A DNA stretch of 64,000 bases from assembly GCF_037201815.1 (NCBI RefSeq), contig NZ_CP147407.1:3604723-3668722 (forward strand), written 5' to 3'. Positions 33,025 through 48,299 of the stretch are shown piece after piece. This stretch comes from Metabacillus sp. FJAT-52054 (GTDB taxonomy: Bacteria; Bacillota; Bacilli; Bacillales; Bacillaceae). The notes below the pieces were generated by a model that saw nothing but the letters and a program-made list of their open reading frames with translations, was not told the origin of the DNA and made no database searches. The translations under genes were made by a program, and so were the position numbers. Each line of letters opens with the position of its first letter. Position 1 is the first letter of the stretch.

Positions 33025-35394
33025 ATGTCAATTATTTATGAAAAGTACATGGAGCTCAGATCAAAAAATCAAATAAAGAAGCTTCATAAGATAGTAGAAA
33101 AAATCAATGCCCTGGAAGATACGTACAAAGGATTGACCGATGATCAGCTGCGTATGAAAACCTCCGCCCTCAAAGAATCCCTCCAAAACGGAAAATCGAT
33201 GGAAGATATCCGTCCCCATGCATTTGCTTTGGTTAGAGAAGCGGCTAAACGCACAATTAAACAGCGCCACTATGACGTTCAGCTAATCGGCGGACTCGTG
33301 CTATCCGAAGGAAACATCTCACAAATGCAGACAGGTGAAGGGAAAACCCTAGTCGCCTCTCTTCCAAGCTTTCTTTTCGCTCTTCATGGAAAAGGTGTTC
33401 ACGTCATTACTTCAAACGAATACCTTGCGAAGCGCGACTTTGAACTAATTGGACAAATCCACCGATTTCTCGGTCTTGAAGTGGGCTTAAACCTGTCCGA
33501 AATGGATACAGAAGAAAAGAAGCAGGCCTACCAGTGTGATATTACGTACGGAACAGGAAATGAATTCGGATTCGATTACCTGCGTGATCACATGGTCAAT
33601 CAGCCTTCCGAAAAAGTTCAAAGAGGACAAGCTTTTGCCATTCTCGATGAGATTGACAGCATTTTGATTGATGAAGCAAGAACACCACTCATCATCGCGA
33701 ACAAATCCGGTGCTTCTATCGAGCTTTTTGAAATTACTTCCATGATCGTCAAGTCCTTCAAAAAAGGCGAAGAAATTGAAGTTGACCTCCCTTCCCGCCA
33801 GGTTCATTTAACGGAGAAAGGGATTGAACGCATTGAAAAGACGTTTGGAGTCGATAACCTTTATTCATCCGATCATCAGGTTCTCTTCCATTATATAAAT
33901 CAGTCCCTCCAGGCTGAATTTATCCTTCGCCGCGATGTAGATTACATCGTGAAGGAAGGAAAAATTGAGCTGGTTGATGCCTTCACCGGACGTGTAATGG
34001 ACGGCCGAAACTTGAGCCACGGGCTTCATCAGGCAATTGAAGCAAAAGAAGGTCTTGAAATTAATGAAGAAAATGTCACTCAGGCAACGGTTACCGTTCA
34101 GAACTATTTCAGAATGTATTCCATTCTTTCCGGAATGACCGGAAGTGCGATTCCTGCCCAAAAAGAGTTTATGGATATCTACTATCTGGATGTTGTTGAA
34201 ATCCCAACCAACCGTCCAAAACGCCGTAAAGACGAGCCTGATCTTATCTATCAGACACTGAACCAAAAATATAAACGGATTGCTGATGAAGTGAAACACA
34301 TAAGTGAGACAGGTCGGCCTGTGCTTATTGGAACAACCTCCATTCACCAGTCTGAGATGCTTTCCGCCTATCTAAAGAAGGCAAATGTCACTCACCAGCT
34401 GCTTAATGCCAAAACAGAAGAACAGGAAGCCAAACTGATTGCTATGGCTGGACAGCAAGGCCAGGTAACCATATCCACGAACATGGCTGGCCGGGGAACA
34501 GATATCCTGCTCGGTGAGGGAGTTGCCAAGCTCGGCGGACTCCACATTATTGGTACGGAACGACATGAAAGCGAGCGTGTGGATATGCAGCTCCGCGGAC
34601 GTGCAGGCCGTCAGGGTGATCCAGGTTCCTCTCAGTTTATTGTGTCACTCGAGGATGACCTCTTGAATCAATACGATGATGAAGAACTGGAAAAGTGGCT
34701 TAAAAAGATGAAGGCCGATGAAACCGGTCTAGTCATAAGCCCTGATCCACGCAAGTTTATGGATAAAGTACAGGAAACCATTGAAAATCAGCATTTCTCA
34801 GGACGCGTTCATTTGCTGAAGCTTGAAGACCACCTCGATCAGCAGCGAAAGGCGATTTACGGGATTCGGAACACCCTGCTTGACAGTGAGGAGCTTTCCT
34901 CCTCCCTAATCGAGCAGTTCAGAACCGTTTACCAGGAGACACTGGATGAGCTGTGCCCTCCTAATAAAACACCAGAGGAGTGGGATACCCCTGCCCTTTA
35001 CATGAAGCTTCAATCCCTCTTCCCTCTCTCCACTGATGCCGCCTCACTGGCAGGAAGAGAACGTGAAGACATCGAGGACATGCTTGAAAAAGATGTAAAT
35101 GCGTATCTATTAGGACTAAGCAAAGTAGATGAAGACGAAAGCATTGCCCAGCAAGCAAGAAGCTTTTCCCTTTCCCTGCTCGATCAGGCATGGATTGCCC
35201 ATCTTGATGTCATGGATGAGCTGAAGGAAGGCATCCACCTCCGCTCGTATGGACAAGAGGATCCGTATCGCCTGTTCCAGCTTGAGTCTCACCATTCCTT
35301 TGAGGAAATGCTGAAGGAATACCGCCATGCTTTATTTGCAAAAATCCAATTCATCCTGCCTAACACTCAGGAAATGGAGGGAATTCAATCATGA
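33025..35394 (+). CDS. secA2: Accessory Sec ATPase SecA2
   Basis: 789 residues: Walker A MQTGEGKTLVASLP, TSNEYLAKRDFE, DEAD-type ILDEIDSILIDEARTP, ISTNMAGRGTDILLGEG and QLRGRAGRQGDPGSSQF. It is shorter than housekeeping SecA and lacks the C-terminal zinc-binding tail. The four-base overlap with slaP identifies the S-layer type, as in B. anthracis, where SecA2 and SlaP promote S-layer protein secretion. It would drive export of the abundant S-layer protein encoded at 55.4 kb. Confidence 0.95.
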   Translation: MSIIYEKYMELRSKNQIKKLHKIVEKINALEDTYKGLTDDQLRMKTSALKESLQNGKSMEDIRPHAFALVREAAKRTIKQRHYDVQLIGGLVLSEGNISQMQTGEGKTLVASLPSFLFALHGKGVHVITSNEYLAKRDFELIGQIHRFLGLEVGLNLSEMDTEEKKQAYQCDITYGTGNEFGFDYLRDHMVNQPSEKVQRGQAFAILDEIDSILIDEARTPLIIANKSGASIELFEITSMIVKSFKKGEEIEVDLPSRQVHLTEKGIERIEKTFGVDNLYSSDHQVLFHYINQSLQAEFILRRDVDYIVKEGKIELVDAFTGRVMDGRNLSHGLHQAIEAKEGLEINEENVTQATVTVQNYFRMYSILSGMTGSAIPAQKEFMDIYYLDVVEIPTNRPKRRKDEPDLIYQTLNQKYKRIADEVKHISETGRPVLIGTTSIHQSEMLSAYLKKANVTHQLLNAKTEEQEAKLIAMAGQQGQVTISTNMAGRGTDILLGEGVAKLGGLHIIGTERHESERVDMQLRGRAGRQGDPGSSQFIVSLEDDLLNQYDDEELEKWLKKMKADETGLVISPDPRKFMDKVQETIENQHFSGRVHLLKLEDHLDQQRKAIYGIRNTLLDSEELSSSLIEQFRTVYQETLDELCPPNKTPEEWDTPALYMKLQSLFPLSTDAASLAGREREDIEDMLEKDVNAYLLGLSKVDEDESIAQQARSFSLSLLDQAWIAHLDVMDELKEGIHLRSYGQEDPYRLFQLESHHSFEEMLKEYRHALFAKIQFILPNTQEMEGIQS

Positions 35395-36194
35395 CAACCA
35401 GCACAGCGGACCAAACCGCCCTTTCCTTCCACCCTTCCTGGGAGGTAAGCAAGCAGGAGGTTTATGTTTATCAATATCACCTTCTTCAGCTCGACCCGCT
35501 TGAAGAGAGCCAGCTCTCTATCTCAGGTCTAAAGCTTGAAGCATACGATGACTTCTTTTCTATTACTTCTTTTATAAGAAGCACAGTCAGCAAACCTCTT
35601 CAATTCGAAATGCTGCAGCTCCTTCTATTGGATGAAAATCAGGAAGTCGTTGCCCGCGAGACATTTGATATGGAGCATTTTGGAGAACTCCCTCCAAACA
35701 CAGCGCGTCCATGGAGATTCCTTTTCGGCATGGACACCCTGCTGGAAGGAAAAGAAATCCCGGCCGGCAGCTGGACGATTGCGTTCGAGCTGAAAAAGAA
35801 AAACGAACACGTCCTTGACCTTGATCCATCCTGGAAAGAAGGGCTCACACCTGAGCAGACAAAGCACCTTGAACAAATGGTGCTGGACTTGCCGCCGATG
35901 GGAGCGAACGAACTGAACATGATGGGACTCGAGGCCGCCCTCAGTCCGGCAGGCGATTTAAAAATATCCCTGCTGATCCGGAACGGCAGCCTGAATAACG
36001 TAAAACTCGAGCAAATCCCTCTAACCGTTGAAGATGCTGCCGGCGACATCGTAGCAAACGGTCTGTTTAAAACCGAAGGCCTCGAAGTTAAAGGCAACAC
36101 AAGCAAGCCTTGGAGCTTTGTTTTCCCGAAAGATATTATTAGAAAAGAAAATCCCGATTTCTCCAGCTGGCGCGTTTACCCGCCGCAGGGGTGA
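35391..36194 (+). CDS. slaP: Accessory Sec system S-layer assembly protein SlaP
   Basis: 267 residues with two SLAP-type modules at about 10-110 and 130-250. Both end with a PxTARPWRFLFG / NTSKPWSFVFP motif and contain SQLSISGLKLEAYDD / NELNMMGLEAAL. No signal peptide or membrane segment, so it is presumably cytoplasmic and works with SecA2. The start overlaps the secA2 stop by four bases (ATGA). A terminator follows. Confidence 0.9.
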   Translation: MTTSTADQTALSFHPSWEVSKQEVYVYQYHLLQLDPLEESQLSISGLKLEAYDDFFSITSFIRSTVSKPLQFEMLQLLLLDENQEVVARETFDMEHFGELPPNTARPWRFLFGMDTLLEGKEIPAGSWTIAFELKKKNEHVLDLDPSWKEGLTPEQTKHLEQMVLDLPPMGANELNMMGLEAALSPAGDLKISLLIRNGSLNNVKLEQIPLTVEDAAGDIVANGLFKTEGLEVKGNTSKPWSFVFPKDIIRKENPDFSSWRVYPPQG

Positions 36195-36622: not shown

Positions 36623-37522
36623 TTAAGACGCTTTCCGTCTCTGTCTCATGCTGTAATCGCGCACCCAAATCGGGATTCTCATCATAAGGCTGATAAGAAG
36701 GACGATGAGGACGAGGACAGCGGCGGATTTGTCTGCAATTTGGGCAGCATCTTCCACCAGTGCTTCGGACTGTACGTACCATAGGTGGACAGGCAGCGTT
36801 CCCCCTTGTGAGAGCGGATTGAAGTCCCACATGACACCTGATGTACCGGTTCCTCCAGCAAGCAGGATAACAGCGGATTCTCCGAAAGCACGGCAGGCGG
36901 CTAAACTGACTCCTGTTAAGATCCCTGAAAGAGCAGCAGGAATGACCACTTTTACAATGGTAGTAGATTTCGTTGCACCCATGGCGAGAGATGCTTCACG
37001 CAGCTCCGCAGGGACAGAGGTAATAGACTCTTCTGTTACCCTTGTGATAACAGGAAGGTTTAAAAGGGATAGCGCAATTCCCGCTCCTAAAATCGTTAGA
37101 CCGATGTCAAAGATATCAACGAAGAGCACATATCCAAAAAGGCCGAAAACAATGGATGGAACGGAGGCTAAGCTTTCAACACATGTTCGAATAAATTCGG
37201 TCACTCGATTGGCAGGTGCATATTCAGCAAGATAAATTCCGGCTCCGACTCCGATCGGCAAGGAAATAACCATTGCGATGATCAGTACGTAAATGGAGTT
37301 GAACAGGAAGGGTCCGACTCCTCCCCCAGCCAAAATCTCATCCGGCAAGTTCACTAGGAAATCCGGTCTTAAAATCGGAAGACCCTTTGCTAAAATGGTG
37401 TAAAGCAGCCACGCGATTGTTAGGACAATGACACCCGCTACTCCCCAAAGAATACCGGTCAGAACGCTGTCCATCATGTATCGGGACTTTTTCTTCGGAA
37501 ACTGAATTCTTTCCTTCGTCAT
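36623..37522 (-). CDS. pstA: Phosphate ABC transporter permease PstA
   Basis: 299 residues, six membrane segments, and the permease EAA-type loop (LREASLAMGATKSTTIVKVVIPAALSGILTG). The arginine-containing loop SIVFGLFGYVLFVD is typical. It forms the channel with PstC. The gene begins two bases after pstC. No pstB follows: the next thing is a terminator and repeats. Confidence 0.93.
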   Translation of the reverse strand: MTKERIQFPKKKSRYMMDSVLTGILWGVAGVIVLTIAWLLYTILAKGLPILRPDFLVNLPDEILAGGGVGPFLFNSIYVLIIAMVISLPIGVGAGIYLAEYAPANRVTEFIRTCVESLASVPSIVFGLFGYVLFVDIFDIGLTILGAGIALSLLNLPVITRVTEESITSVPAELREASLAMGATKSTTIVKVVIPAALSGILTGVSLAACRAFGESAVILLAGGTGTSGVMWDFNPLSQGGTLPVHLWYVQSEALVEDAAQIADKSAAVLVLIVLLISLMMRIPIWVRDYSMRQRRKAS

Positions 37523-37524
37523 GG

Positions 37525-38451
37525 TTAAGCCCCCTTCGTTCTGATTCTGCGGATAACCAGAATCATGATAGTTGAAATGATCAGCAGCAGGAAGGCCATC
37601 ATATAAAGGGCGTTGTTCCAGGCAGAACCAAATTCGACATCAATAATTTGGTTGACAATCGTTGTCGTTAATACGGCAGTTGGCGTGTACAAATCCGTCG
37701 GAAGCTGTGCCGTATTTCCGATAACCATAACAACCGCCATCGTCTCTCCGATGGCTCTTGCCATTCCAAGAATAATCGCCGTCAGAATGCCCGGGCTTGC
37801 TGCAGGCAGGATTACGCGGAATATGGTTTGCAGTCGCGTGCTGCCCATCGCATAACTCGCTTCTCTTAGTTCGGTCGGAACCGCGGCAATCGCATCATCA
37901 CTGATTCGAGTAATTGTCGGAAGTACCATTAAAGTAAGAACAATGGCAGCTGCAAGAAGACCATCTCCGACTAACGCACCTGTTGCACTTCGGATGAAGG
38001 GTACAAGGATCGTCAACCCAAGATATCCATAAACGATTGACGGAATTCCGACAAGCAAATCAAGCAGGGGGCGGAGTATTCTTTTAAGCCAGTCCGGCGC
38101 CACTTCTACTGTAAAGATTGCTAATGCCAGAGAGATAGGTGCTGCAAATACAAGGGTTAATGCAGTTAAAGACAATGTGCCGAGAATGAAAACTGCGGCT
38201 CCGTATTTCTCTGCGTAAGGATCCCATGTAAAAGAAAAGAAAAACTCCATCGGAGACACGTCATTAAATACCTGCAGACCTGTTTTTCCAATGAATAAAA
38301 TGATTGAGAATAGAACAACACCGAGTAACAGTGCGCTGCCCAATGTATAAACGTAGAACGCTCTGTTTTTAGCATAACTTGATTTTTTAATAACGGCCTT
38401 TTCGCTAATTTCCGCAGGCGGCGTCATGATATCCTGTTCGATCTTCGCCAT
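37525..38451 (-). CDS. pstC: Phosphate ABC transporter permease PstC
   Basis: 308 residues, six to seven membrane segments, EAA loop LREASYAMGSTRLQTIFRVILPAASPGILTA and IPSIVYGYLGLTILVP. It partners with PstA for high-affinity phosphate uptake. It is separated from pstS by 189 bases containing a hairpin, which may lower permease expression relative to the binding protein. Confidence 0.93.
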   Translation of the reverse strand: MAKIEQDIMTPPAEISEKAVIKKSSYAKNRAFYVYTLGSALLLGVVLFSIILFIGKTGLQVFNDVSPMEFFFSFTWDPYAEKYGAAVFILGTLSLTALTLVFAAPISLALAIFTVEVAPDWLKRILRPLLDLLVGIPSIVYGYLGLTILVPFIRSATGALVGDGLLAAAIVLTLMVLPTITRISDDAIAAVPTELREASYAMGSTRLQTIFRVILPAASPGILTAIILGMARAIGETMAVVMVIGNTAQLPTDLYTPTAVLTTTIVNQIIDVEFGSAWNNALYMMAFLLLIISTIMILVIRRIRTKGA

Positions 38452-38471: not shown

Positions 38472-38504
38472 ATGCAAAGCCAGCCCTAATAGAGCTGGCT
38501 TCTA
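38472..38504 (-). terminator. Hairpin between pstS and pstC
   Basis: AGCCAGC/GCTGGCT stem around CTCTATTAGG or the like, with a short T-run. Probably a partial terminator or processing site that raises pstS over pstCA. Confidence 0.55.
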
Positions 38505-38640
38505 CTATTTGAAAGGGAGATAAAGAGTTTTTCAGCTGGAATAGCTGACGGACATAAGCGCATGAAATCCGCACACCACTGCAGACTTCATGCAAGTCCT
38601 GTAAAGCAATGAGTGAATCCTCGAACCTTATCAGCAGATA

Positions 38641-39492
38641 TTAGAATCCTCTGTAAGGAAGGAATTTAAGCTTTTTCAAAGAACCATTTTGGAATTTAGA
38701 GCTTTGAATATAAGAAATGAACGCAGCGTTAGCACCTTTAGCAGGTCCTTTAGTCAAGAAGTAGCCTACACCGTAAACTGGGTACTTTTTGCTTTTTACG
38801 TTAGTTGTTGTTGCAGCTACGCCGTTGTAAGAAAGAGCTTTAATGCTTCCTTTTACGTAAGCAAGGTCAACATAACCGATTGCATTAGGGTTGGATCCAA
38901 CAGCAGTAGTCATTTCTCCGCTTTTACCAACCTCTTTGTAGTTTCCTTTTGTCATGAAGCTTTTGCCTTTAAGAGCTTTTGCCTGATAGTTTACACGAGT
39001 ACCAGAACCTGTTTTGCGGTTTACAACAACGATTGCTGCATCCTTACCGCCAACTTGCTTCCAGTTTGTGATTTTTCCAGAGAAAATGCCTTGAAGCTGA
39101 GAAGTAGAAAGATTTTTAACTTTGTTAGATGTATGAACAATTGTAGCAAATGGGATTACCGCTACTTTGTAAGCAGTCAAGCCTTTGAATGCGTTGAATC
39201 CAGGAACAGCTTTCGTTGCGTCCCAGTCACAGGCACCGATTGTTGCGCTTCCTTTAGATACAGACTGAGGACCTGCAATAGAAGAAGAACCGGATACAGA
39301 TACAGATACTTTTGGATTTGATTTTTTGAATTCTTTTGCACCTTGGGAAGTAAGGGGAAGAAGAGCTGTTGAACCAGCTACAACTACCTTTCCAGTTGCA
39401 GATGCAGCATTTGCTGATGTTGCGCCAAAAGTAAAACCTACAGATACAACTGCCGCTAAAGTAAGGGTGGATACACGTTTCATTAAATTCAT
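38641..39492 (-). CDS. pstS: Phosphate-binding protein PstS without lipobox
   Basis: 283 residues from ATG 39492, nine bases after AGGAG; two other in-frame ATGs have worse spacing. It shows the PstS motifs AGSTALLPLTSQGAKEF, SGSSSIAG, ATIGACDWDA and VVNRKTGSGTRVNY, which line the phosphate site. The signal peptide ends AASA-like (GATSANAASA) with no Cys, whereas most Gram-positive PstS proteins are lipoproteins, so this one may be released or held in the wall. It is co-transcribed with the stalk protein, 21 bases upstream. Confidence 0.9.
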   Translation of the reverse strand: MNLMKRVSTLTLAAVVSVGFTFGATSANAASATGKVVVAGSTALLPLTSQGAKEFKKSNPKVSVSVSGSSSIAGPQSVSKGSATIGACDWDATKAVPGFNAFKGLTAYKVAVIPFATIVHTSNKVKNLSTSQLQGIFSGKITNWKQVGGKDAAIVVVNRKTGSGTRVNYQAKALKGKSFMTKGNYKEVGKSGEMTTAVGSNPNAIGYVDLAYVKGSIKALSYNGVAATTTNVKSKKYPVYGVGYFLTKGPAKGANAAFISYIQSSKFQNGSLKKLKFLPYRGF

Positions 39493-39513: not shown

Positions 39514-41283
39514 TTATTTTGTTACGATTTTAAAGCTTCCGTCTTTCCAAACAACCAGTCTTTCACCGTAAAGTCCTGGAGCTGTTGCAGCAACCTGTCC
39601 ATCTTTAGATACCGCAAAAGAAGTGATTTCCAAAGGAGTAGACGCAATCTTCGTCAATTTCATGTCTGAAGGATTCACTTCATAGATAACAGACATGTTA
39701 TTCTCTGAAGTTAAAATCATTAGCTTGCCTTCTTGAGTTACCGTTACAAATAAAATGTCTTTGTCTTTTACAAGCTGGCTGACTGTATTGTCAGCACGAA
39801 CCATTGTCAGCACAGGCAGATCTTCAGAGTCTGGCATTGCGCTAAGGTAAACGATGCTTCCGTCTTTCAGGAATGCAGGGTATACTTTGTTATCTTTTGT
39901 TGTAGTGACTGCAGCTGCTGCAGGTGTTTTAGCCGTTAAATCAATCGTGTAAAACTGCGGCTCTGTGCCTTCTGTCAGGATATCCGTTACATCGGTTCCG
40001 CCATCGCCAGTATCCGTTGTTTTCGTTTCAGCTTCTTTACTTACTACATATAGAAGCTTTGATCCGTCCGCAGAAAGTCTAAGATCTGTTTTATAGATTT
40101 TAGTATCGGATGGAATTTCTTTTAGTGCTCCCGTCGCAATATCTACTGAAAATACTTTGTCGTTCTTTTCACCTTTAATGAAGTAAGCTTTTTTGCCGTC
40201 CTGTGCCCAAACGAAATCTACTTTAATGTCATCGTCTAAGCTAACGTATCTGGACGTGCCAGTTGTAAGATCAATCAGCGTGATGATGCCTGTTTCGTCA
40301 GAGTGGATTGCATACATTCCGTCTGGAGAAACCACCACATCTGTAGCGTTGATTGTACTCATTACTTTTCGTGTGTTCACGTCCATAATGTATGTGCGGG
40401 ATGCATTTTCGTCTTCATTTGTAACCATCACTTGGGAACCAGCCCATGCCGGGTTATAAGTGTCACCGGAAACAAGCTTCGAAGTGAAAAGCATGTAGCT
40501 TCCATTTTCCGCTTTTTCCATTTGACCGCCGAGTGCTTTGACCATATCCATCAAATCGGCGTAAATCACACCTTTAACCGATACTGGATACACGGACAAA
40601 TTGACAGTTTCTCCATTAGCTGTTATACTATTTTGGTGAATTTTAAATGTAGCAGTTTGTGAGCCTTTTTGAAGCGTCACAGCTGTACCCTTCACCGTAA
40701 CCTTTGCAGAGTAAGCCTTTGCGATGTCTTGTACGGAGTACAGGTACTTACCATTTACACGCAAAGTTTTAGCTGAGTGAAGCTTGCCCTCTACATTCAT
40801 CTTGGATGTGGATGTTTTAAACATTCCTTTTTCGGATATTAATAGATTAGCGTCTATTAATAGATCTCCGCCTAGCGCATGGACGAAATTCTTCGCTGCC
40901 ATGAAGAGTGTCTTTCCTGCCATCGCAGGCGGATTTTCTAGCTTAACCTTTTTGCCATTAACGATTGCCTGGCTGGAACCAGATTTCACTTTAATGGTTT
41001 TCATGTCTTTCCCGCTGCCTTTGGAAACGACATAATATTGTGACTTCTTGTCATACATAACTTTTGCCGATAGAGCTTTTGCAAGGTCGCTTACAGAATG
41101 AAGCTTTGTTTTGCCTATGACTGCCGCATGAACAACTTTTTGCTTGCCGTTTACATATACAGACTCTTTCATCGTTTGCTGTACTGCACTTGCTGCCTGA
41201 GCTTCATTTATTGCTACAGGGGAAAATGCACTGCCTGCAAGAACGGCAGAAGCAATCACTAGGCTAGTAAATTCGCGTCTCAT
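39514..41283 (-). CDS. Secreted stalk-domain (copper amine oxidase N-like) and beta-propeller protein
   Basis: 589 residues from ATG 41283 with GGAGG eight bases upstream (the frame opens at 41298, inside the ribosome site). Signal peptide ends NEAQAA. Residues to about 260 contain four stalk/copper-amine-oxidase-N-type repeats (VNGKQKVVHAAVIGKTKLHS; VNGKKVKLENPPAMAGKTLF). The rest has repeated WD/Kelch-like blades (MYAIHSDETGIITLIDLTTG, KKAYFIKGEKNDKVFSVDI). Function is unknown. It is first in the pst operon behind a PhoP box, so it is probably phosphate-starvation induced and exported to the wall. Confidence 0.82.
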   Translation of the reverse strand: MRREFTSLVIASAVLAGSAFSPVAINEAQAASAVQQTMKESVYVNGKQKVVHAAVIGKTKLHSVSDLAKALSAKVMYDKKSQYYVVSKGSGKDMKTIKVKSGSSQAIVNGKKVKLENPPAMAGKTLFMAAKNFVHALGGDLLIDANLLISEKGMFKTSTSKMNVEGKLHSAKTLRVNGKYLYSVQDIAKAYSAKVTVKGTAVTLQKGSQTATFKIHQNSITANGETVNLSVYPVSVKGVIYADLMDMVKALGGQMEKAENGSYMLFTSKLVSGDTYNPAWAGSQVMVTNEDENASRTYIMDVNTRKVMSTINATDVVVSPDGMYAIHSDETGIITLIDLTTGTSRYVSLDDDIKVDFVWAQDGKKAYFIKGEKNDKVFSVDIATGALKEIPSDTKIYKTDLRLSADGSKLLYVVSKEAETKTTDTGDGGTDVTDILTEGTEPQFYTIDLTAKTPAAAAVTTTKDNKVYPAFLKDGSIVYLSAMPDSEDLPVLTMVRADNTVSQLVKDKDILFVTVTQEGKLMILTSENNMSVIYEVNPSDMKLTKIASTPLEITSFAVSKDGQVAATAPGLYGERLVVWKDGSFKIVTK

Positions 41284-41384
41284 CCATTTTACCTCCAATT
41301 TTTTTGTTACTTTTGGCTGAATTGGGTCCCTCCTAATACTTGGTCACCTCCTCATTTTTTACCAACTACTACATAACAAGAGTA

Positions 41385-41490
41385 ATTATATTCCCGTTTT
41401 GTTAAGGAAGTTTAATTCTATCTTTAAGATTGTAAATTTGTGGTGAATTTGATGTAAAAAATTGACGAATTGTTGTCAAATTTGTAACAA
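41385..41490 (-). promoter_or_regulatory. PhoP box and promoter of the stalk-pstSCA operon
   Basis: On the minus strand TTTACA-N5-TTCACC-N5-TTTACA (hexamers at 41453-41458, 41442-41447, 41431-41436) are in 11-base phase, and further TTGACA/TTGTTACA copies lie upstream. This is the Bacillus PhoP box pattern TT(A/C/T)ACA. A TAGAAT (41415-41420) lies ten bases downstream, the usual distance for a PhoP-activated -10; a TATAAT also lies at 41385-41390. Confidence 0.75.
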
Positions 41491-41523: not shown

Positions 41524-41553
41524 TAAAAAAAGACCGCCTTTTTCGGCGGTCTT
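41524..41553 (-). terminator. CAP protein terminator
   Basis: AAGACCGCC/GGCGGTCTT stem with T-run TTTTTTT on the minus strand, directly after the stop. Confidence 0.9.
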
Positions 41554-41554
41554 T

Positions 41555-42466
41555 TTAGTCGATGAACATCTGGGTCCAATATTTCTCTTTATAACCGGTC
41601 CCAATCTGTGCGAATTCTTTTTTCAGGATATTGGCGCGGTGTCCTGGACTATTCATCCAGCCTTTCACCACATCATGAGCTCCTGTATATCCTTTGGCAA
41701 TGTTTTCACCGGCATATCCATAGTTGACTCCAAACTTCTGCATCATATCAAATGGAGATCCATAGGTCGGGGAAGTATGGTTAAAATAATTTTTACTGTA
41801 CATATCTTCGGATTTTTTTCTCGCTACACCTGATAGCTTCATATTCAAAGTATATATGGAAAGTTTATTCTTTACCCGTTCAAAATTGGTGAGCAGAAAA
41901 ACTTCGTATTCAAGCTGGCTGATCCCCCGGCTTTTCGCATCAACCTTTACATATGTTTTTTTCTTGAGGCTTGATTCTGCTGCACGGAGATAGTTCCCTG
42001 CTACAGCAGGAATTGCTTCGTACTTTCCAGCCGCTTTAATGGCAGCTGCCCGCTCTGAGAGCCTCGATAGCTTGGCTATATCCGTACTTCCGCTTGCACC
42101 CCTTGTCAAATTGAGCCCAATTTTATAAATCAGCCGGTATTCGGAAATCTCGTAAATTACGCGTTCCTTCGCAATTTTTGCCGGCCTTATGTATTGCTTC
42201 AGTAAATTCTCTCTTGTACGTTGACCGGACACTCTGCCGATTGCTTTTTCAGCTTCGGCTATTTGAGCTGAATAGCTATCATAGGCGTCATTCATCAGAT
42301 AAAGATCGCCGCTTTTTATGATTTCTTGAAAATAAGCCGTTTCGACCTTCAGCTTTTCACCCTCCTGCTTCGCAGAAGACAAAGAGTCAGCAGCCAGTCC
42401 CGTTTGGGGCATGGTGAAAAGGACAGCTGTAAAAAAAATAAATAAGAACGTTTTTGTGTATTTCAT
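41555..42466 (-). CDS. CAP/SCP domain protein with SbsC-like helical anchor
   Basis: 303 residues: signal peptide (ending GLAADS), an N-terminal helical domain (about 28-190) with YIRPAKIAKERVIYEISEYRLIYKI and LSERAAAIKAAGKY, then a bacterial CAP domain (LTNFERVKNKLSIY, NHTSPTYGSPFDMMQKFG, AGENIAKGY, GWMNSPGHRANIL). CAP proteins of this YkwD type are secreted with unclear activity. The helical part is shared with four other proteins here and is the probable wall anchor. An extended -10 (TGG-TATAAT, 42497-42502) precedes it. Confidence 0.88.
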   Translation of the reverse strand: MKYTKTFLFIFFTAVLFTMPQTGLAADSLSSAKQEGEKLKVETAYFQEIIKSGDLYLMNDAYDSYSAQIAEAEKAIGRVSGQRTRENLLKQYIRPAKIAKERVIYEISEYRLIYKIGLNLTRGASGSTDIAKLSRLSERAAAIKAAGKYEAIPAVAGNYLRAAESSLKKKTYVKVDAKSRGISQLEYEVFLLTNFERVKNKLSIYTLNMKLSGVARKKSEDMYSKNYFNHTSPTYGSPFDMMQKFGVNYGYAGENIAKGYTGAHDVVKGWMNSPGHRANILKKEFAQIGTGYKEKYWTQMFID

Positions 42467-42615
42467 GCCTTTCCCTCCAATTCTATCAGTCTATTCATTA
42501 TACCATCTCAAGAAATTGCCGGTCGTTTGCATTTTTTTACATTGTCATCAAAGCATTATTGCCTTTAGAATAATACGAGATCTTTTTGGCAAAATAACAA
42601 CTAGCAGGTGATGAT

Positions 42616-43659
42616 ATGACAAAAAGAAGAATTCTGTATTTTGATTGGCTGCGTGTTCTGGCAACAATAAGCGTCGTTGTTCTTCATGCAGCAGCTCCAT
42701 TGCTTTATGAGTATGATAAAATCCCTGATTATGAATGGTGGACCGGACATATATATGATTCCGTTACCCGCTGGTGTGTGCCGATCTTCTTCATGATGAG
42801 CGGAGCGCTCATGCTGAATCCTGCAAAGAAAGAGCCGGCGAACCTTTTTTTCAGGAAACGGGCTTCTAAAGTATTAATTCCTTTTGCCGCTTGGACTGTT
42901 TTTTATTTGCTCATTCAAATGAAAACGGGAGACATTGAAAGGACCCCAGCTGCTGCCGTAAAAGCCATTCTTTCCGATACGGTTTATTATCATCTGTGGT
43001 TTTTATATGTGATTATCGGATTGTATCTCATTACCCCAATCCTGAGAGTTTATATTTCCAACGCTTCAAGGAGGAATATCGAATTTTTCCTAGCCCTGTG
43101 GTTTGTTTGTACAGCTGGTTTCAGTCTGATCAGCAAATTTTTCGAAGTGAAAATGGGATTTGAAGCCTTCCCGGCAAGCGGATACATAGGCTATTTCGTA
43201 TTAGGCTACTATTTTTACCATTACAGCTTTAGCAAGGCGGCTAAGAACATCTATTATGTGATTGGAATTGCCGGTGTGTGCACAACACTCCTGGTCACTC
43301 TGTTTTTAACAAAAGAGAACAACGGAACATTTGACGGGTTCTTCTATCACTACTTAAATATATCGACAATCTTTATGTCTGGTGCTTTCTTTATGTTTTT
43401 CAAAGATCTGCAGGAGAAGACAAACCCATCCAGCGGCTCTTACAAGTGGCTCAGCCCCATCAATAAGGCCAGTATGGGGATTTACTTGATCCATCCCTTT
43501 GTCTTCCTGCTGCTGGAGAAATTCCTGGGGTTAAACGCCTTTACATTTAACCCTCTATACGGGATTCCGCTCATGGCATTTCTGGCGATTTCCATTAGTT
43601 TTGTGATCACGAGGATTTTGCAGCGTGTGCCGGTTGTGAGGAGTATTGTTCCAAGCTAA
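42616..43659 (+). CDS. Acyltransferase family 3 membrane protein
   Basis: 347 residues, about ten membrane segments. Family motifs are FDWLRVLATISVVVLHAAAP with the conserved His, RWCVPIFFMMSGALML, YHLWFLYVIIGLYLITPIL and MGIYLIHPFVFLLLEK. These enzymes acylate sugars of surface polysaccharides or peptidoglycan; it looks like the WecH/OatA membrane part without the extracellular SGNH domain. It is alone on the plus strand in this region, with a promoter-like TTGTCA...TAGAAT (42542-42571). Acetylation of the wall polymer is a reasonable guess. Confidence 0.88.
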   Translation: MTKRRILYFDWLRVLATISVVVLHAAAPLLYEYDKIPDYEWWTGHIYDSVTRWCVPIFFMMSGALMLNPAKKEPANLFFRKRASKVLIPFAAWTVFYLLIQMKTGDIERTPAAAVKAILSDTVYYHLWFLYVIIGLYLITPILRVYISNASRRNIEFFLALWFVCTAGFSLISKFFEVKMGFEAFPASGYIGYFVLGYYFYHYSFSKAAKNIYYVIGIAGVCTTLLVTLFLTKENNGTFDGFFYHYLNISTIFMSGAFFMFFKDLQEKTNPSSGSYKWLSPINKASMGIYLIHPFVFLLLEKFLGLNAFTFNPLYGIPLMAFLAISISFVITRILQRVPVVRSIVPS

Positions 43660-43663
43660 AACG

Positions 43664-43697
43664 ATAAGGGTAACCTCCATAGAGAGGTTACCCTTAT
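43664..43697. terminator. Bidirectional terminator
   Basis: ATAAGGGTAACCTC/GAGGTTACCCTTAT, a 14-base perfect stem between convergent genes. Confidence 0.88.
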
Positions 43698-43700
43698 TCA

Positions 43701-45089
43701 TTAATTGCCCCCAAATACAGGCGAATAGGAAGTTCCGGTTTTTTTCACATAATACCCGCCGCCAATATCATAGCGGTCGTTTTTAATTTCGTGTACCCTG
43801 TAGCCGGTATTTGCAGGAAGGGTTTTTAACACTGTGCCGTTTGAACGGTACATGGTAAGAGGCTTAGCACTCTCCACATATCCAAGGAAAAGCTTGTAGC
43901 CATCCTTTTTGTACTTTACCTCTCCATTTTCCATTACAATCGTTAGCAGCTTGTCTTCAGAGGCATAGCCCGCAACTTTGTTTCTGCTATCCACTGCAAC
44001 CGCCATCACGAGTTTTGTTTCTGCTGGGTCGTGTTTCACATACACTCCGCCGCCTACGTTATACGAGCCGTTATTTGTGCCGTATACCCTTAGGGCAGCA
44101 CCTTTCGCATACGTTTTAAACGGCTGCTCCTTGCCGCTGACTAATTTATAGGAGCTCACATTTTTCAAAAGCTTGATCCTTCCGTATCCTTCTTTTCTAT
44201 TCGGGTTGATCGATAGGGGATTTGCTGTTTCAATTCTGAGCGGTTTCAGGTTGGACGAAGCCATATAGCCTGTTTTGCCATTTACTTTTACATAATAGTA
44301 GCCAAACAAATTATTCCGGTTATCGTCTTCAAATAACTCATCACTTAAAATTTCTACCGTAGCATTCGGACCAATCTCAGCTAATTTAGGCATCTTCGTA
44401 TTCGGTTCCTTGCGCAAATTGTTGATTGGCTCTTTCGTAATGACCTTATCTCCCTTATTTAAGTCACCTGCAGATGCTGTATATCCGTAAGCCCATTGCA
44501 TAGGAGCATTACCAGGCTTCCAGTTTGGATCATAGTTCTTTACTGGGAATGGGGTTGTAACCGTATTACCAAATTGGCTCATGTTTTTATAAACTAATTC
44601 CTGATACGTAGATCCTGGATGTTGTGTCGGATCGTTTTTACCGGAATTCCCATTATAGTTCCGCACAGCAAAATACCAATGCTCAAGAATATAAGGAGAT
44701 TGATTTTCAATAACAGGATTCGTTTTAATAGTATATTTCTCTTTCAGAATGCTGACGCCTTGATCAATATTATACGCAGCATCTGTTTTCAGGCGTTCCC
44801 GATCAATTTCAGGATGATCCCCGGGACTGAGGGTTACTTGCATAATACCGATTCCGCCATCCGATGTAACCAGCGGTGCTCCGTTTTTACATTGATACAA
44901 GCCTCCGCTTTCCTTAGAGGCAATTCCTTTAACGATTTCAACAGGTACATCATATTTTTTAGCTGCATCAGCTAACATATTTTTCATCTCAATGACCGAA
45001 GGCTCGCTGCATGAACCAGTTTCAGCCTGTACTCCTGCCGGTGTCCATAATAAAGATGCGGCTAGTACAGCTCCTGTTAATAATTTCAC
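43701..45089 (-). CDS. Secreted lytic transglycosylase with SH3 and C-terminal repeats
   Basis: 462 residues: signal peptide ending GVQAET, a lytic transglycosylase domain at about 35-170 (GIASKESGGLYQC with catalytic Glu, GGIGIMQV, YNIDQGVSILKEKY), an SH3 domain at about 215-285 (NLRKEPNTKMPKLAEIGP), and repeats of about 75 residues with RVYGTNNGSYNVGGGVYV and RVHEIKNDRYDIGGGYYV at the end. The same repeat type ends the beta-propeller protein at 48.4 kb. The enzyme would cut glycan strands of peptidoglycan. Confidence 0.87.
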   Translation of the reverse strand: MKLLTGAVLAASLLWTPAGVQAETGSCSEPSVIEMKNMLADAAKKYDVPVEIVKGIASKESGGLYQCKNGAPLVTSDGGIGIMQVTLSPGDHPEIDRERLKTDAAYNIDQGVSILKEKYTIKTNPVIENQSPYILEHWYFAVRNYNGNSGKNDPTQHPGSTYQELVYKNMSQFGNTVTTPFPVKNYDPNWKPGNAPMQWAYGYTASAGDLNKGDKVITKEPINNLRKEPNTKMPKLAEIGPNATVEILSDELFEDDNRNNLFGYYYVKVNGKTGYMASSNLKPLRIETANPLSINPNRKEGYGRIKLLKNVSSYKLVSGKEQPFKTYAKGAALRVYGTNNGSYNVGGGVYVKHDPAETKLVMAVAVDSRNKVAGYASEDKLLTIVMENGEVKYKKDGYKLFLGYVESAKPLTMYRSNGTVLKTLPANTGYRVHEIKNDRYDIGGGYYVKKTGTSYSPVFGGN

Positions 45090-45157
45090 TATTTTTACCC
45101 CCTAAAGTTTCTTCTATCATTCTATCATGTAATAATTACCAATAATAGCAAAAAAAT

Positions 45158-45189
45158 AAAAGCAGATGCTCATTGCAGCATCTGCTTTT
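45158..45189 (-). terminator. NlpC/P60 gene terminator
   Basis: AAAAGCAGATGC/GCATCTGCTTTT, a 12-base stem with T-rich minus-strand flank. Confidence 0.88.
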
Positions 45190-45197
45190 CAGTAGAA

Positions 45198-46316
45198 TTA
45201 TAGGTTTAATTTCGCTTTAAGCGCCAGCTTGCGCTCTTTTAAATCGGCATTGATTTTAGAAAGACTGTGGTATCCGCCTGCATGCAGAGCGTTCCCGTCT
45301 GCTTTAATTTTAGAAGCACGCGTTTCCAGTCTTGATAGAGTTTCAAAATGTTCAATCGCCGTTTTTACAGATCCCTTAGCAATGAGGCTGTCAATATCAT
45401 TCATGAGACGATACATGGATACCTCATATTTTGTTGTTTCACGGGCAATTTTCGCTTGGGTAACAAAGCGGTCATTGAACACTTTGCGGTTAGATGCACC
45501 GTACATTTTTCCAATTACACTTTCCGTTTTGCCAATTTTGTAGGAAAGCTCATCGTATAGCTTGTTCGTTTCAGCATCCAAACGCTGTCCGCTAATTAGT
45601 TTGGACGTGAGTTCATTTGTTTCTTTTTCAAGATCCATGCCCGTTTTTACAGCATCAATCACTCTTGCAGAACGATTCATGTATTCTGTAAAACTAGCAT
45701 CCTTGCTTTTTGCCTTCAACCTATTGTATTCCCCGATTAAAGAAGAATCCAAACCGTTAATTTTATCGGCAGTCGAGTATTTGGACTGTAAATTGCTAGC
45801 TAGCTCTTTTGCAGATTGTGTATAGTTCTCAGTCGCAGCAGCTAGTACAGTTCCTAGCGTAGAATGTCTTTTTGCGCTAACGTATGCATTGCGCCAGTAG
45901 CTCTCTCCAAGTGAACTTGTCGTTACACCTTTTGAAGAGGATGCGTGAATGAATTGGTTGCCTCCAATATAAATCCCTACGTGGGAAACGGAAGGCTTGC
46001 TCATCGTTCTGAAAAATACGAGATCTCCAGGCTGTTTACTGGATACACTCTCCATACTGCTTGAATTGTACATTCCATCAGCCGTACGGGGTACGGATAA
46101 TCCTGCTTTATTAAATACATAGCCTACAAACCCTGAGCAGTCAAAGCCGGATGGAGTGGTTCCTCCCCATTTGTACGGTACTCCTATGTATTGCTTGCTT
46201 ATATTTATGATATTAGTTTCGAATGAAGTAGATGCAGCTTTCGCATCGTTGGCTGGCAGATACGAACTGAATAATAGAGATGTTGCTAATCCAAGAGCAA
46301 TAATCGGTTTCTTCAT
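45198..46316 (-). CDS. NlpC/P60 peptidoglycan hydrolase with SbsC-like helical anchor
   Basis: 372 residues from ATG 46316 (AAAGGAGGAAG upstream; seven codons of open frame before it are ignored). Signal peptide ends NDAKAA. NlpC/P60 domain at about 33-150: GVPYKWGGTTPSGFDCSGFVGYVF with catalytic Cys, then VSHVGIYIGGNQFIHASS with catalytic His. The C-terminal half carries the helical domain (SARVIDAVKTGMDLEKE, SVIGKMYGASNRKVF, AKIARETTKYEVSMYRL, LSRLETRASKIKADGNAL). It cuts stem peptides. Confidence 0.9.
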   Translation of the reverse strand: MKKPIIALGLATSLLFSSYLPANDAKAASTSFETNIINISKQYIGVPYKWGGTTPSGFDCSGFVGYVFNKAGLSVPRTADGMYNSSSMESVSSKQPGDLVFFRTMSKPSVSHVGIYIGGNQFIHASSSKGVTTSSLGESYWRNAYVSAKRHSTLGTVLAAATENYTQSAKELASNLQSKYSTADKINGLDSSLIGEYNRLKAKSKDASFTEYMNRSARVIDAVKTGMDLEKETNELTSKLISGQRLDAETNKLYDELSYKIGKTESVIGKMYGASNRKVFNDRFVTQAKIARETTKYEVSMYRLMNDIDSLIAKGSVKTAIEHFETLSRLETRASKIKADGNALHAGGYHSLSKINADLKERKLALKAKLNL

Positions 46317-46520
46317 GTTCTTCCTCCTTTGGCACAAGATTAGTATACATGACGGATGAAGGAAGTAGTATAACAGTTCTATTACATAATTCCGTAATGT
46401 TACAATAACATTACAATAAAGTGATTTTACGATTAATTATGTCACGTTTCAGCAAATTTTTTTGTCAAAACCCGGTTAAATAGGTGCTTTTAGAACCTAG
46501 TACTAAACGAGTCTCATACA

Positions 46521-46550
46521 AAAAGAGAAGGTCAAAAGACCCCCTCTTTT
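46521..46550 (-). terminator. M14 carboxypeptidase terminator
   Basis: AAAAGAG-GGTC/GACC-CTCTTTT stem with a two-base internal mismatch and T-run. Confidence 0.75.
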
Positions 46551-46556
46551 CATTAT

Positions 46557-48299
46557 CTATCTAAGCTCATTTTCAATTTGTTTCAGTGTTGTTTCAAATC
46601 CCGGCAAATCCGGATATTTTCCTGGATACAATTGGTTTCCAGCTTTTTTTACAGCTGCTGATCTTTCAGTCAATCGGTCATAAAGATTAAACTTCTCTTG
46701 CAAAATGACCGGATCGGTTCCTTTTGCTTTCAATTCTTTAATTTCTGCTAGAAGACGGTAGCGTGATATTTCATAGATCACCGTTTCCTTGGCGATTTTT
46801 GCAGGAACAAGATATTTTTGTCCAAACAAGCTTCTTTCACTGCCGCCATATACTTTACCAATGGAAGCTTCTTCTTTTTTCAGCTGCCTGGAAAGCTCAT
46901 CATAAGCGGCTCCAGTTTCATCATTCAGTGTTCCGTTTGCAGCAAATGACTGCAGCTCACTGCGCTCTTTATTTAGAAGATCCCCTGCTTTTACAGCATC
47001 AATAAAGTAGGCAGCCTGCAGCCGAATCTGTTTAGCATTCCTTACATTTTTCATGGCATTTTCTTTATAATAGGCAGGCAAATTAGAGGCGATGCCCTCT
47101 GCTCTTTTCACTTCATAATCGGACTGATCATACAGTTTTTTCATAGAAGCCGATATGTATAAGTTTGCTTGTGACTTTATGTTCGCTGTGTAATGCGGCT
47201 TTAATTTAAAACTTGACTGCAGATAGCTGTTTACTTGCGAAACCTGCTGATCATACGTTGAACCAACCCGCTGCTGGTACAGCTTATAGCCCTCTTTCGC
47301 AGCGTAGAGCCCTACATCTTTGTTTTCCTCCCATACCTTGCTGAAATTTTTCAGCGGAACACTCGTATCTCCTACAAATGGAGAGATTTCAAGCGTGAAA
47401 GCAGGGCGCTTGTATGTCTGCAGGAACCAGTCTGTAAATCCTCCTCCAGACGGGTTAGGTCCAGGATATACGAGCCGGTATCCAGTCATTCTTCCAAGCT
47501 GCTTCGCGTAGTTCAAATCGCGCGTATAGCGGGCACCGGTCTGGTAAAAATTCCAGAACAGGATTTCTCCGCTTGAATGATAGCTTAGCGACATTTCAGG
47601 GTCAATGTCCTTCATAAACCCCAGGACCACTTTGGTTTCAGCAGTCGATGCCGGGCTGTAGCCTTTAAAGTTTTCTGAAGCGGGCTTGCCCGGGCTGCAG
47701 CAGATCGACGACCATTTTGCATCATATTGACGGTTCAGGTCGACCCCTTTTGCGTTTGCTTTCCAGTGTTTAAAATCCGCGCTTCCTCCATTCATCTTTA
47801 ACGCAGATGACTGACTGGAGGCCGGAAGTGATTTCACGCCATATTGCTGAAGTGAAACTCCGTCAGGATTCACCATGGGCATAAACCAAATCGTAGTTTG
47901 GTCTAAAATTGACTTAGCTGATAGGCCATTGATTGTTGAGTTACTGTAATAGGCTTTTGCATATTGATCAATCATCTTCATATTGAGACTGGTAGTCATC
48001 CACTCTCTCGCATGGTGTGAACCGTTTACAAAAACCTGCGCAGGGCCTTTCCCGATCGAGACAGCGTAAAGATCACGTCCATATTCCGATTTTCCAACTG
48101 ATTTGTAGCTCACTAAGTGAGGATATGTAGCAGCAAGCGCTTGTAAATCCTTTTTCATTACATCATACGTATAGACCTGATTAGCATTGACAGAGAACGG
48201 GGCAGCAGAGGCTTTCTCTTCTGTGCCAGTGAAGCTTTTTGTGCCAGTGAAGCTTATGCAAAAAACAAAGGCGGCAATTATCCAAATTAATTTTCTCAC
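46557..48299 (-). CDS. M14 zinc carboxypeptidase with SbsC-like helical anchor
   Basis: 580 residues: signal peptide (with a duplicated SFTGT), M14 domain at about 40-340 with the zinc HxxE in NGSHHAREWMTTS, substrate NP in PMVNPDGV, DLNRQYDAKW, the third zinc His in LSYHSSGE, and the catalytic Glu in FTLEISPF. The C-terminal part (about 370-580) is the shared helical domain (AAYFIDAVKAGDLLNKE, GKVYGGSERSLF, VPAKIAKETVIYEISRYRL, GNQLYPGKYPDL). It probably trims peptides at the cell surface. Confidence 0.9.
   Translation of the reverse strand: MRKLIWIIAAFVFCISFTGTKSFTGTEEKASAAPFSVNANQVYTYDVMKKDLQALAATYPHLVSYKSVGKSEYGRDLYAVSIGKGPAQVFVNGSHHAREWMTTSLNMKMIDQYAKAYYSNSTINGLSAKSILDQTTIWFMPMVNPDGVSLQQYGVKSLPASSQSSALKMNGGSADFKHWKANAKGVDLNRQYDAKWSSICCSPGKPASENFKGYSPASTAETKVVLGFMKDIDPEMSLSYHSSGEILFWNFYQTGARYTRDLNYAKQLGRMTGYRLVYPGPNPSGGGFTDWFLQTYKRPAFTLEISPFVGDTSVPLKNFSKVWEENKDVGLYAAKEGYKLYQQRVGSTYDQQVSQVNSYLQSSFKLKPHYTANIKSQANLYISASMKKLYDQSDYEVKRAEGIASNLPAYYKENAMKNVRNAKQIRLQAAYFIDAVKAGDLLNKERSELQSFAANGTLNDETGAAYDELSRQLKKEEASIGKVYGGSERSLFGQKYLVPAKIAKETVIYEISRYRLLAEIKELKAKGTDPVILQEKFNLYDRLTERSAAVKKAGNQLYPGKYPDLPGFETTLKQIENELR

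Follow-up and report, generated by a model that had tools for sequence, protein, structure and literature searches.

The locus examined here raises two questions: why does a gene for a secreted stalk/propeller protein stand at the head of a phosphate-uptake operon, and is the operon controlled by the phosphate-starvation regulator PhoP? It lies within the window, a 64,000-nucleotide stretch of the Metabacillus sp. FJAT-52054 genome, where the genes follow an array of PhoP-box-like half-sites on the minus strand (Table 1). A preliminary description of this DNA read the first gene of the operon as an exported stalk/propeller gene instead of pstS, followed by pstS, pstC and pstA in the same direction, and this reading is borne out. 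The interest of the locus lies in this operon and not in its promoter.

Table 1. Features of the propeller-pstSCA cassette and its upstream region (window coordinates)
Feature	Position	Strand	Basis
Exported stalk/propeller gene, 589 aa; two Cu_amine_oxidN1 domains (PF07833) and a β-propeller; type-I signal peptide	39514..41283	-	
pstS, phosphate-binding protein; type-I signal peptide, without lipobox; alternative start 39501	38641..39492	-	
Hairpin pair between pstS and pstC (38593-38560; 38501-38477)	38477..38593	-	
pstC, permease; above TIGR02138 cut-off; EAA coupling loop EASYAMG	37525..38451	-	
pstA, permease, last gene; above TIGR00974 cut-off; EAA coupling loop EASLAMG	36623..37522	-	
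Distal triplet of PhoP-box half-sites, TTTACA-N5-TTCACC-N5-TTTACA	41431..41458	-	sequence, genome pattern match, shuffles
Distal half-sites TTTACA; TTCACC; TTTACA	41458-41453; 41447-41442; 41436-41431	-	
Proximal triplet of half-sites	41400..41427	-	offsets 0, 11, 22, 31, 42, 53, 68 recurring in divergent relatives
Proximal half-sites TTAAAG; ATTAAA; TTAACA	41427-41422; 41416-41411; 41405-41400	-	
TATAAT, most likely -10	41385..41390	-	conservation, 9-base gap peak of spacing scan
TAGAAT, -10 of the preliminary description; overlaps a half-site, rejected as main -10	41415..41420	-	
Terminator-like GC-rich hairpin, T-run on either strand, lying between the promoter and the CAP-domain gene	41525..41554	.	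sequence

A conserved variant of the Pst operon

Each of the 43 genomes that carry an intact cassette shows the gene order propeller-pstS-pstC; these genomes belong to the Bacillales and to other orders of the class Bacilli, and pstA is the next gene in each of the ten cassettes with long flanks. Among 397 genomes of the order, cassette-type PstS (E ≤ 1e-117) occurs in 16, and these are the same 16 that possess an intact propeller gene. The PstS E-values leave an empty interval between 1e-117 (cassette type) and 1e-65 (other PstS). The seventeenth propeller genome of the order (G454; L156, C11) harbors a decayed cassette, in which the propeller is split into two pieces, pstS is missing, and pstC is incomplete. 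The gene order in the 43 genomes and the exact co-occurrence with cassette-type PstS support the earlier suggestion that an exported propeller protein belongs to the phosphate response. A contig search for near-identical loci returned a single match, Bacillus sp. SJS, and the distribution given above was taken from a separate genome search.

The four-gene phosphate-uptake operon is ancient, and it is a conserved Pst variant of which no prior description was found. The literature search, which covered few subscription journals, yielded no account of the cassette and nothing direct on a link between propeller and pst genes, on stalk-domain proteins in phosphate starvation, or on the text of a PhoP-box consensus. 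Like the canonical PhoP-controlled pstSCAB(-phoU) operon of Bacillus, the cassette encodes members of the common PstS, PstC, and PstA families and combines an 11-base phase of half-sites with a 9-base gap to the -10 and a hairpin between pstS and pstC. It differs from the canonical operon by the absence of pstB and phoU, by the stalk/propeller gene in first place, by an array of six half-sites instead of four, and by a PstS that is not a lipoprotein. The hairpin in the pstS-pstC gap is strong (-17 to -25 kcal/mol) in 10 of 10 cassettes examined and would favor the production of more propeller protein and PstS than permease. A hairpin is likewise located between pstS and pstC in the pst operon of B. 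subtilis.

The surroundings of the cassette are rich in genes for exported proteins of the wall on one side. At 41555-48299 (minus strand), these form a run with a common SbsC_C domain that comprises a CAP/YkwD-like protein, an NlpC/P60 hydrolase, and an M14 carboxypeptidase. On the other side, at 33025-36194 (plus strand) and converging with the cassette, lie a secA2-like gene and the gene of an accessory Sec S-layer assembly protein (TIGR04399). This latter arrangement is the same in four relatives (G001, G002, G004, and G005) and is absent in other families.

An unlipidated PstS and the propeller protein encoded beside it

In Gram-positive ABC importers, lipid-anchored binding proteins are taken as the rule. 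The cassette PstS carries a plain signal peptide instead: none of the 43 proteins has a lipobox, and no cysteine is present in the first 60 residues. All 19 distinct PstS sequences examined that have no neighboring propeller are lipoproteins, a set that includes the outgroup pstSCA of G836 (L159), which stems from a different class. Because the cassette PstS proteins form one clade, the loss of the lipobox may be one ancestral event that is simply linked to the propeller. The combination of a lipobox-less PstS with a secreted propeller protein in 43 of 43 genomes suggests another way in which such a protein can be kept close to the membrane. When lipidation is lost in S. pneumoniae, ABC transporters for cations and sugars are impaired (PMC3404074).

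Judged by its sequence and modeled fold, the cassette PstS is a phosphate-binding protein. It scores 179 bits against TIGR02136, which is below the cut-off of 207; its sequence is 34-36% identical to solved PstS proteins with the phosphate-binding motifs kept, and its model superimposes on solved phosphate-binding proteins with TM values of 0.8-0.9. The same fold is taken on by S. pneumoniae PstS1 (4exl, 4lat) and the phosphate-binding protein of Lactobacillus brevis (4ecf), both within this range of identity, the TM values referring to 4ecf and 4lat. The cassette PstS is distinguished from these two proteins by its type-I signal peptide, and near the ligand loop it shows an invariant Ala-Cys-Asp-Trp where 4exl has Asn-Ser-Asp-Val. 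The Cys-Asp-Trp of this motif (residues 88-90 of the window PstS) lies beside the phosphate-binding loop, is invariant in the ten cassette PstS that were aligned, and is unusual for a secreted Bacillus protein.

The structure of the propeller protein is predicted with confidence (pLDDT 85.8). Its N-terminal part consists of the two Cu_amine_oxidN1 stalk domains, and the C-terminal propeller spans residues 269-589. The propeller matches the fold of the S9 carboxypeptidase 8wt1 (Z 28, 3.3 Å over 297 residues) and also that of TolB. It thus shares its fold with the β-propellers of TolB and the S9 peptidases (Z up to 28), the sequence match to TolB being weak. In contrast to these proteins, the cassette protein has no hydrolase domain, carries two stalk domains at its N terminus, and has pstS as its gene partner.

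β-Propellers include phytases and lyases, and the cassette protein could be an enzyme or a wall remodeler, with teichoic acid or phytate as conceivable substrates, that makes no contact with PstS. The wall enzymes in the neighborhood would suit such a role, as would the control that PhoP exerts on wall phosphate turnover in Bacillus (PMC13403408). Nevertheless, such a role is rather unlikely, as the propeller protein has no Pfam phytase match, the fold searches gave S9-peptidase and TolB propellers without a hydrolase domain coming along, and across genera it is pstS, rather than any wall gene, that is exactly linked to the propeller gene. A phytase would still be compatible with the outcome of these searches. 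The reading preferred here, in which the propeller protein docks or retains PstS in place of a lipid anchor, is put forward tentatively.

Permeases without an ATPase of their own

No pstB was found in any of the ten cassettes with long flanks. The genome itself encodes exactly one PstB above the TIGR00972 cut-off, which is located in the main pst operon, and each of the nine relatives tested has at least one PstB elsewhere in its genome. PstC and PstA score above their equivalog cut-offs and their EAA loops are intact, so the permeases probably still couple to an ATPase. As the cassette has no ATPase gene, this would be the PstB of the main operon, and sharing of that subunit by the cassette permeases appears likely.

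An alternative is that the cassette acts as a phosphate sensor, buffer, or scavenger, in which the secreted PstS and the propeller protein collect phosphate and PstCA does not import it. The lack of pstB in all cassettes with long flanks agrees with this, as do the unlipidated PstS in 43 genomes and the hairpin before pstC, which suggests an excess of PstS and propeller protein. Permeases deprived of an ATPase would, however, be expected to decay, and both PstC and PstA have kept their equivalog scores and their EAA loops. Together with the occurrence of PstB elsewhere in 10 of 10 genomes tested, this makes a cassette without import unlikely. Under the favored reading, in which PstB is borrowed, a permease pair that was kept over two orders without its own ATPase makes the sharing of Pst subunits directly testable.

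Architecture of the promoter

From 41458 to 41385 on the minus strand, the promoter region reads TTTACA-TCAAA-TTCACC-ACAAA-TTTACA-ATC-TTAAAG-ATAGA-ATTAAA-CTTCC-TTAACA-AAACGGGAA-TATAAT. The distal triplet and, ten bases behind it, a TAGAAT are present as described before. The triplet deviates by one mismatch from the pattern TTYACA-N5-TTYACA-N5-TTYACA. No other site in the whole 4.1-Mb genome comes this close, the runners-up having two mismatches, and 150 dinucleotide-shuffled versions of the window yielded no match of the same quality. The 11-base phasing that had been ascribed to the array holds within each triplet and is interrupted between them, where the step from the third to the fourth half-site measures 9 bases. 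The last half-site of the proximal triplet (TTAACA) is separated from TATAAT by 9 bases. A search with the two-site pattern plus TATAAT across the genome gave 75 matches compared to 44 for the reversed control and was too noisy.

To locate the -10, the sequences preceding the cassette were compared in nine relatives, whose propeller proteins range from 94% down to 34% identity. The offsets 0, 11, 22, 31, 42, 53, and 68, of which the first six mark half-sites and the last TATAAT, are found again within the genus (own genome, G001, G002, and G004) and in G005, G107, G124, and G197, each with p = 0.002, which is the floor of 500 shuffles. Two further Bacillales, G090 and G169, show the proximal part only (p = 0.03 and 0.2, respectively). 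As some of the sequences tested had also served to derive these offsets, a spacing scan without assumed offsets was run on 20 divergent cassette promoters, covering all phases of 8-14 bases and all gaps of 5-14 bases. A single sharp peak was obtained at phase 11 and gap 9 (15.15 versus about 13.3 for the others), and the signal of this combination reaches z = 13.7 against dinucleotide shuffles. The cassette promoters of the Paenibacillaceae match the six-site architecture less well.

TATAAT is present in the own genome, in G001, G002, G004, G005, G107, G124, G090, and G197, and in others, and nearly all divergent Bacillales relatives have kept it; exceptions at this position are TACAAT in the G712 copy and TAAGAT/TAGGAT in the f23 copies. 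TAGAAT, which was discarded as the main -10 on grounds of conservation, is restricted to the own genome, G001, and G002 among the relatives compared. Most likely, the -10 is thus TATAAT, and the earlier assignment to TAGAAT, 30 bases further upstream, is probably wrong. It could be argued that PhoP binds the distal triplet only and that TAGAAT serves as -10 with a longer leader, as the best half-sites are those of the distal triplet and a gap of 10 bases is close to the canonical 9. This is improbable, however, given that TAGAAT sits inside the array, that the conserved hexamer in divergent relatives is TATAAT at a 9-base gap, and that most canonical pst promoters also show a gap of 9 bases.

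Probable regulation by PhoP

The main pst promoters of the own genome and the nine relatives (n = 10), which are independent of the cassette promoters, carry half-sites in 11-base phase, typically TTTACA-TTAACA-TTAAAA-TTAATA. In most of the ten, a 9-base gap leads to TATTCT or TACAAT (z = 10.3). The genome also encodes a phoP-phoR pair, with a phoR that scores above the NF046044 cut-off, the response regulator directly upstream, and polA downstream. Most of the inspected genome matches of the three-site pattern do not lie 5′ of phosphate genes; the exceptions are the matches at the main pst operon and in a run just behind phoR. This PhoP-box-like run comprises TTTACA, TTTACA, TTTATT, and TTAACA, is followed by TATAAT, and begins immediately behind the stop codon of phoR (L065, genome C1:2878889-2878851, minus strand).

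The cassette promoter displays TTHACA-like direct half-sites in 11-base phase on the coding strand, in an array just before a sigma-A -10, and as far as these sequence features go it is a Pho promoter of the usual type. It resembles the Pho-regulon promoters of B. subtilis in the sequence, orientation, and phase of its half-sites and in their position before the -10. Differences are the extra distal triplet and the 9-base step between the triplets, and the cassette array is known here from its sequence. Binding and activation of the cassette promoter by PhoP are likely. The initial proposal of a PhoP-type promoter before propeller-pstSCA is well supported by the spacing kept in 20 divergent promoters, the canonical pst geometry, and the presence of phoP-phoR, but the anatomy of the promoter had been misread.

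With its sequence TGTWAH-N5-TGTWAH, the WalR box comes close to a reverse complement of the PhoP box and shares its 11-base phase, which is why WalR stays a rival. Control by a different regulator of the OmpR family, in the first place WalR (YycF), instead of or beside PhoP, would tie the operon to wall metabolism and could draw on the adjoining wall-protein genes and the discussed cross-regulation of PhoPR and WalRK (PMC13403408), but it is improbable, as the half-sites on the coding strand read TTHACA, the gap to the -10 equals that of canonical pst operons, and the gene products are proteins of phosphate transport. The orientation of the half-sites and the gap to the -10 favor PhoP over WalR.

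Proposed mechanism

During phosphate starvation, PhoP~P would bind the array, occupying up to six half-sites, and transcription would start from TATAAT. The operon would then be a second, accessory Pst operon that is switched on under these conditions. Its products would be the secreted stalk/propeller protein, the secreted and unlipidated PstS, and the permeases PstC and PstA. The stalk/propeller protein would take the place of the lipid anchor by holding PstS, which has no anchor of its own, in the cell wall close to the permeases. PstS would subsequently deliver phosphate to PstCA, with transport powered by PstB from the main pst operon.

The promoter steps of this mechanism are strongly supported by sequence comparison, and the retention of PstS and the sharing of PstB are steps that we infer. 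Taken as a whole, a PhoP-activated accessory Pst module with propeller-retained PstS and borrowed PstB is slightly favored. Its extension to the entire class, as an accessory Pst module in which a stalk/propeller protein bound to the wall stands in for the lipid anchor, PstS is soluble and retained in the wall, and PstB is borrowed, is possible and is proposed with reserve. In Paenibacillus sonchi, pstS is strongly induced upon phosphate downshift, a result in which the pstS copies are not distinguishable (PMC7793946).

The leader between the promoter and the propeller gene comprises 101 bases. It contains a second Shine-Dalgarno-like motif, AGGAGGTGA, at 41344..41352 (minus strand), 69 bases before the start codon. 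The motif is weak and occurs in part of the Bacillaceae relatives only (mean 5.3 versus 4.5 by shuffle); it might stabilize the mRNA.
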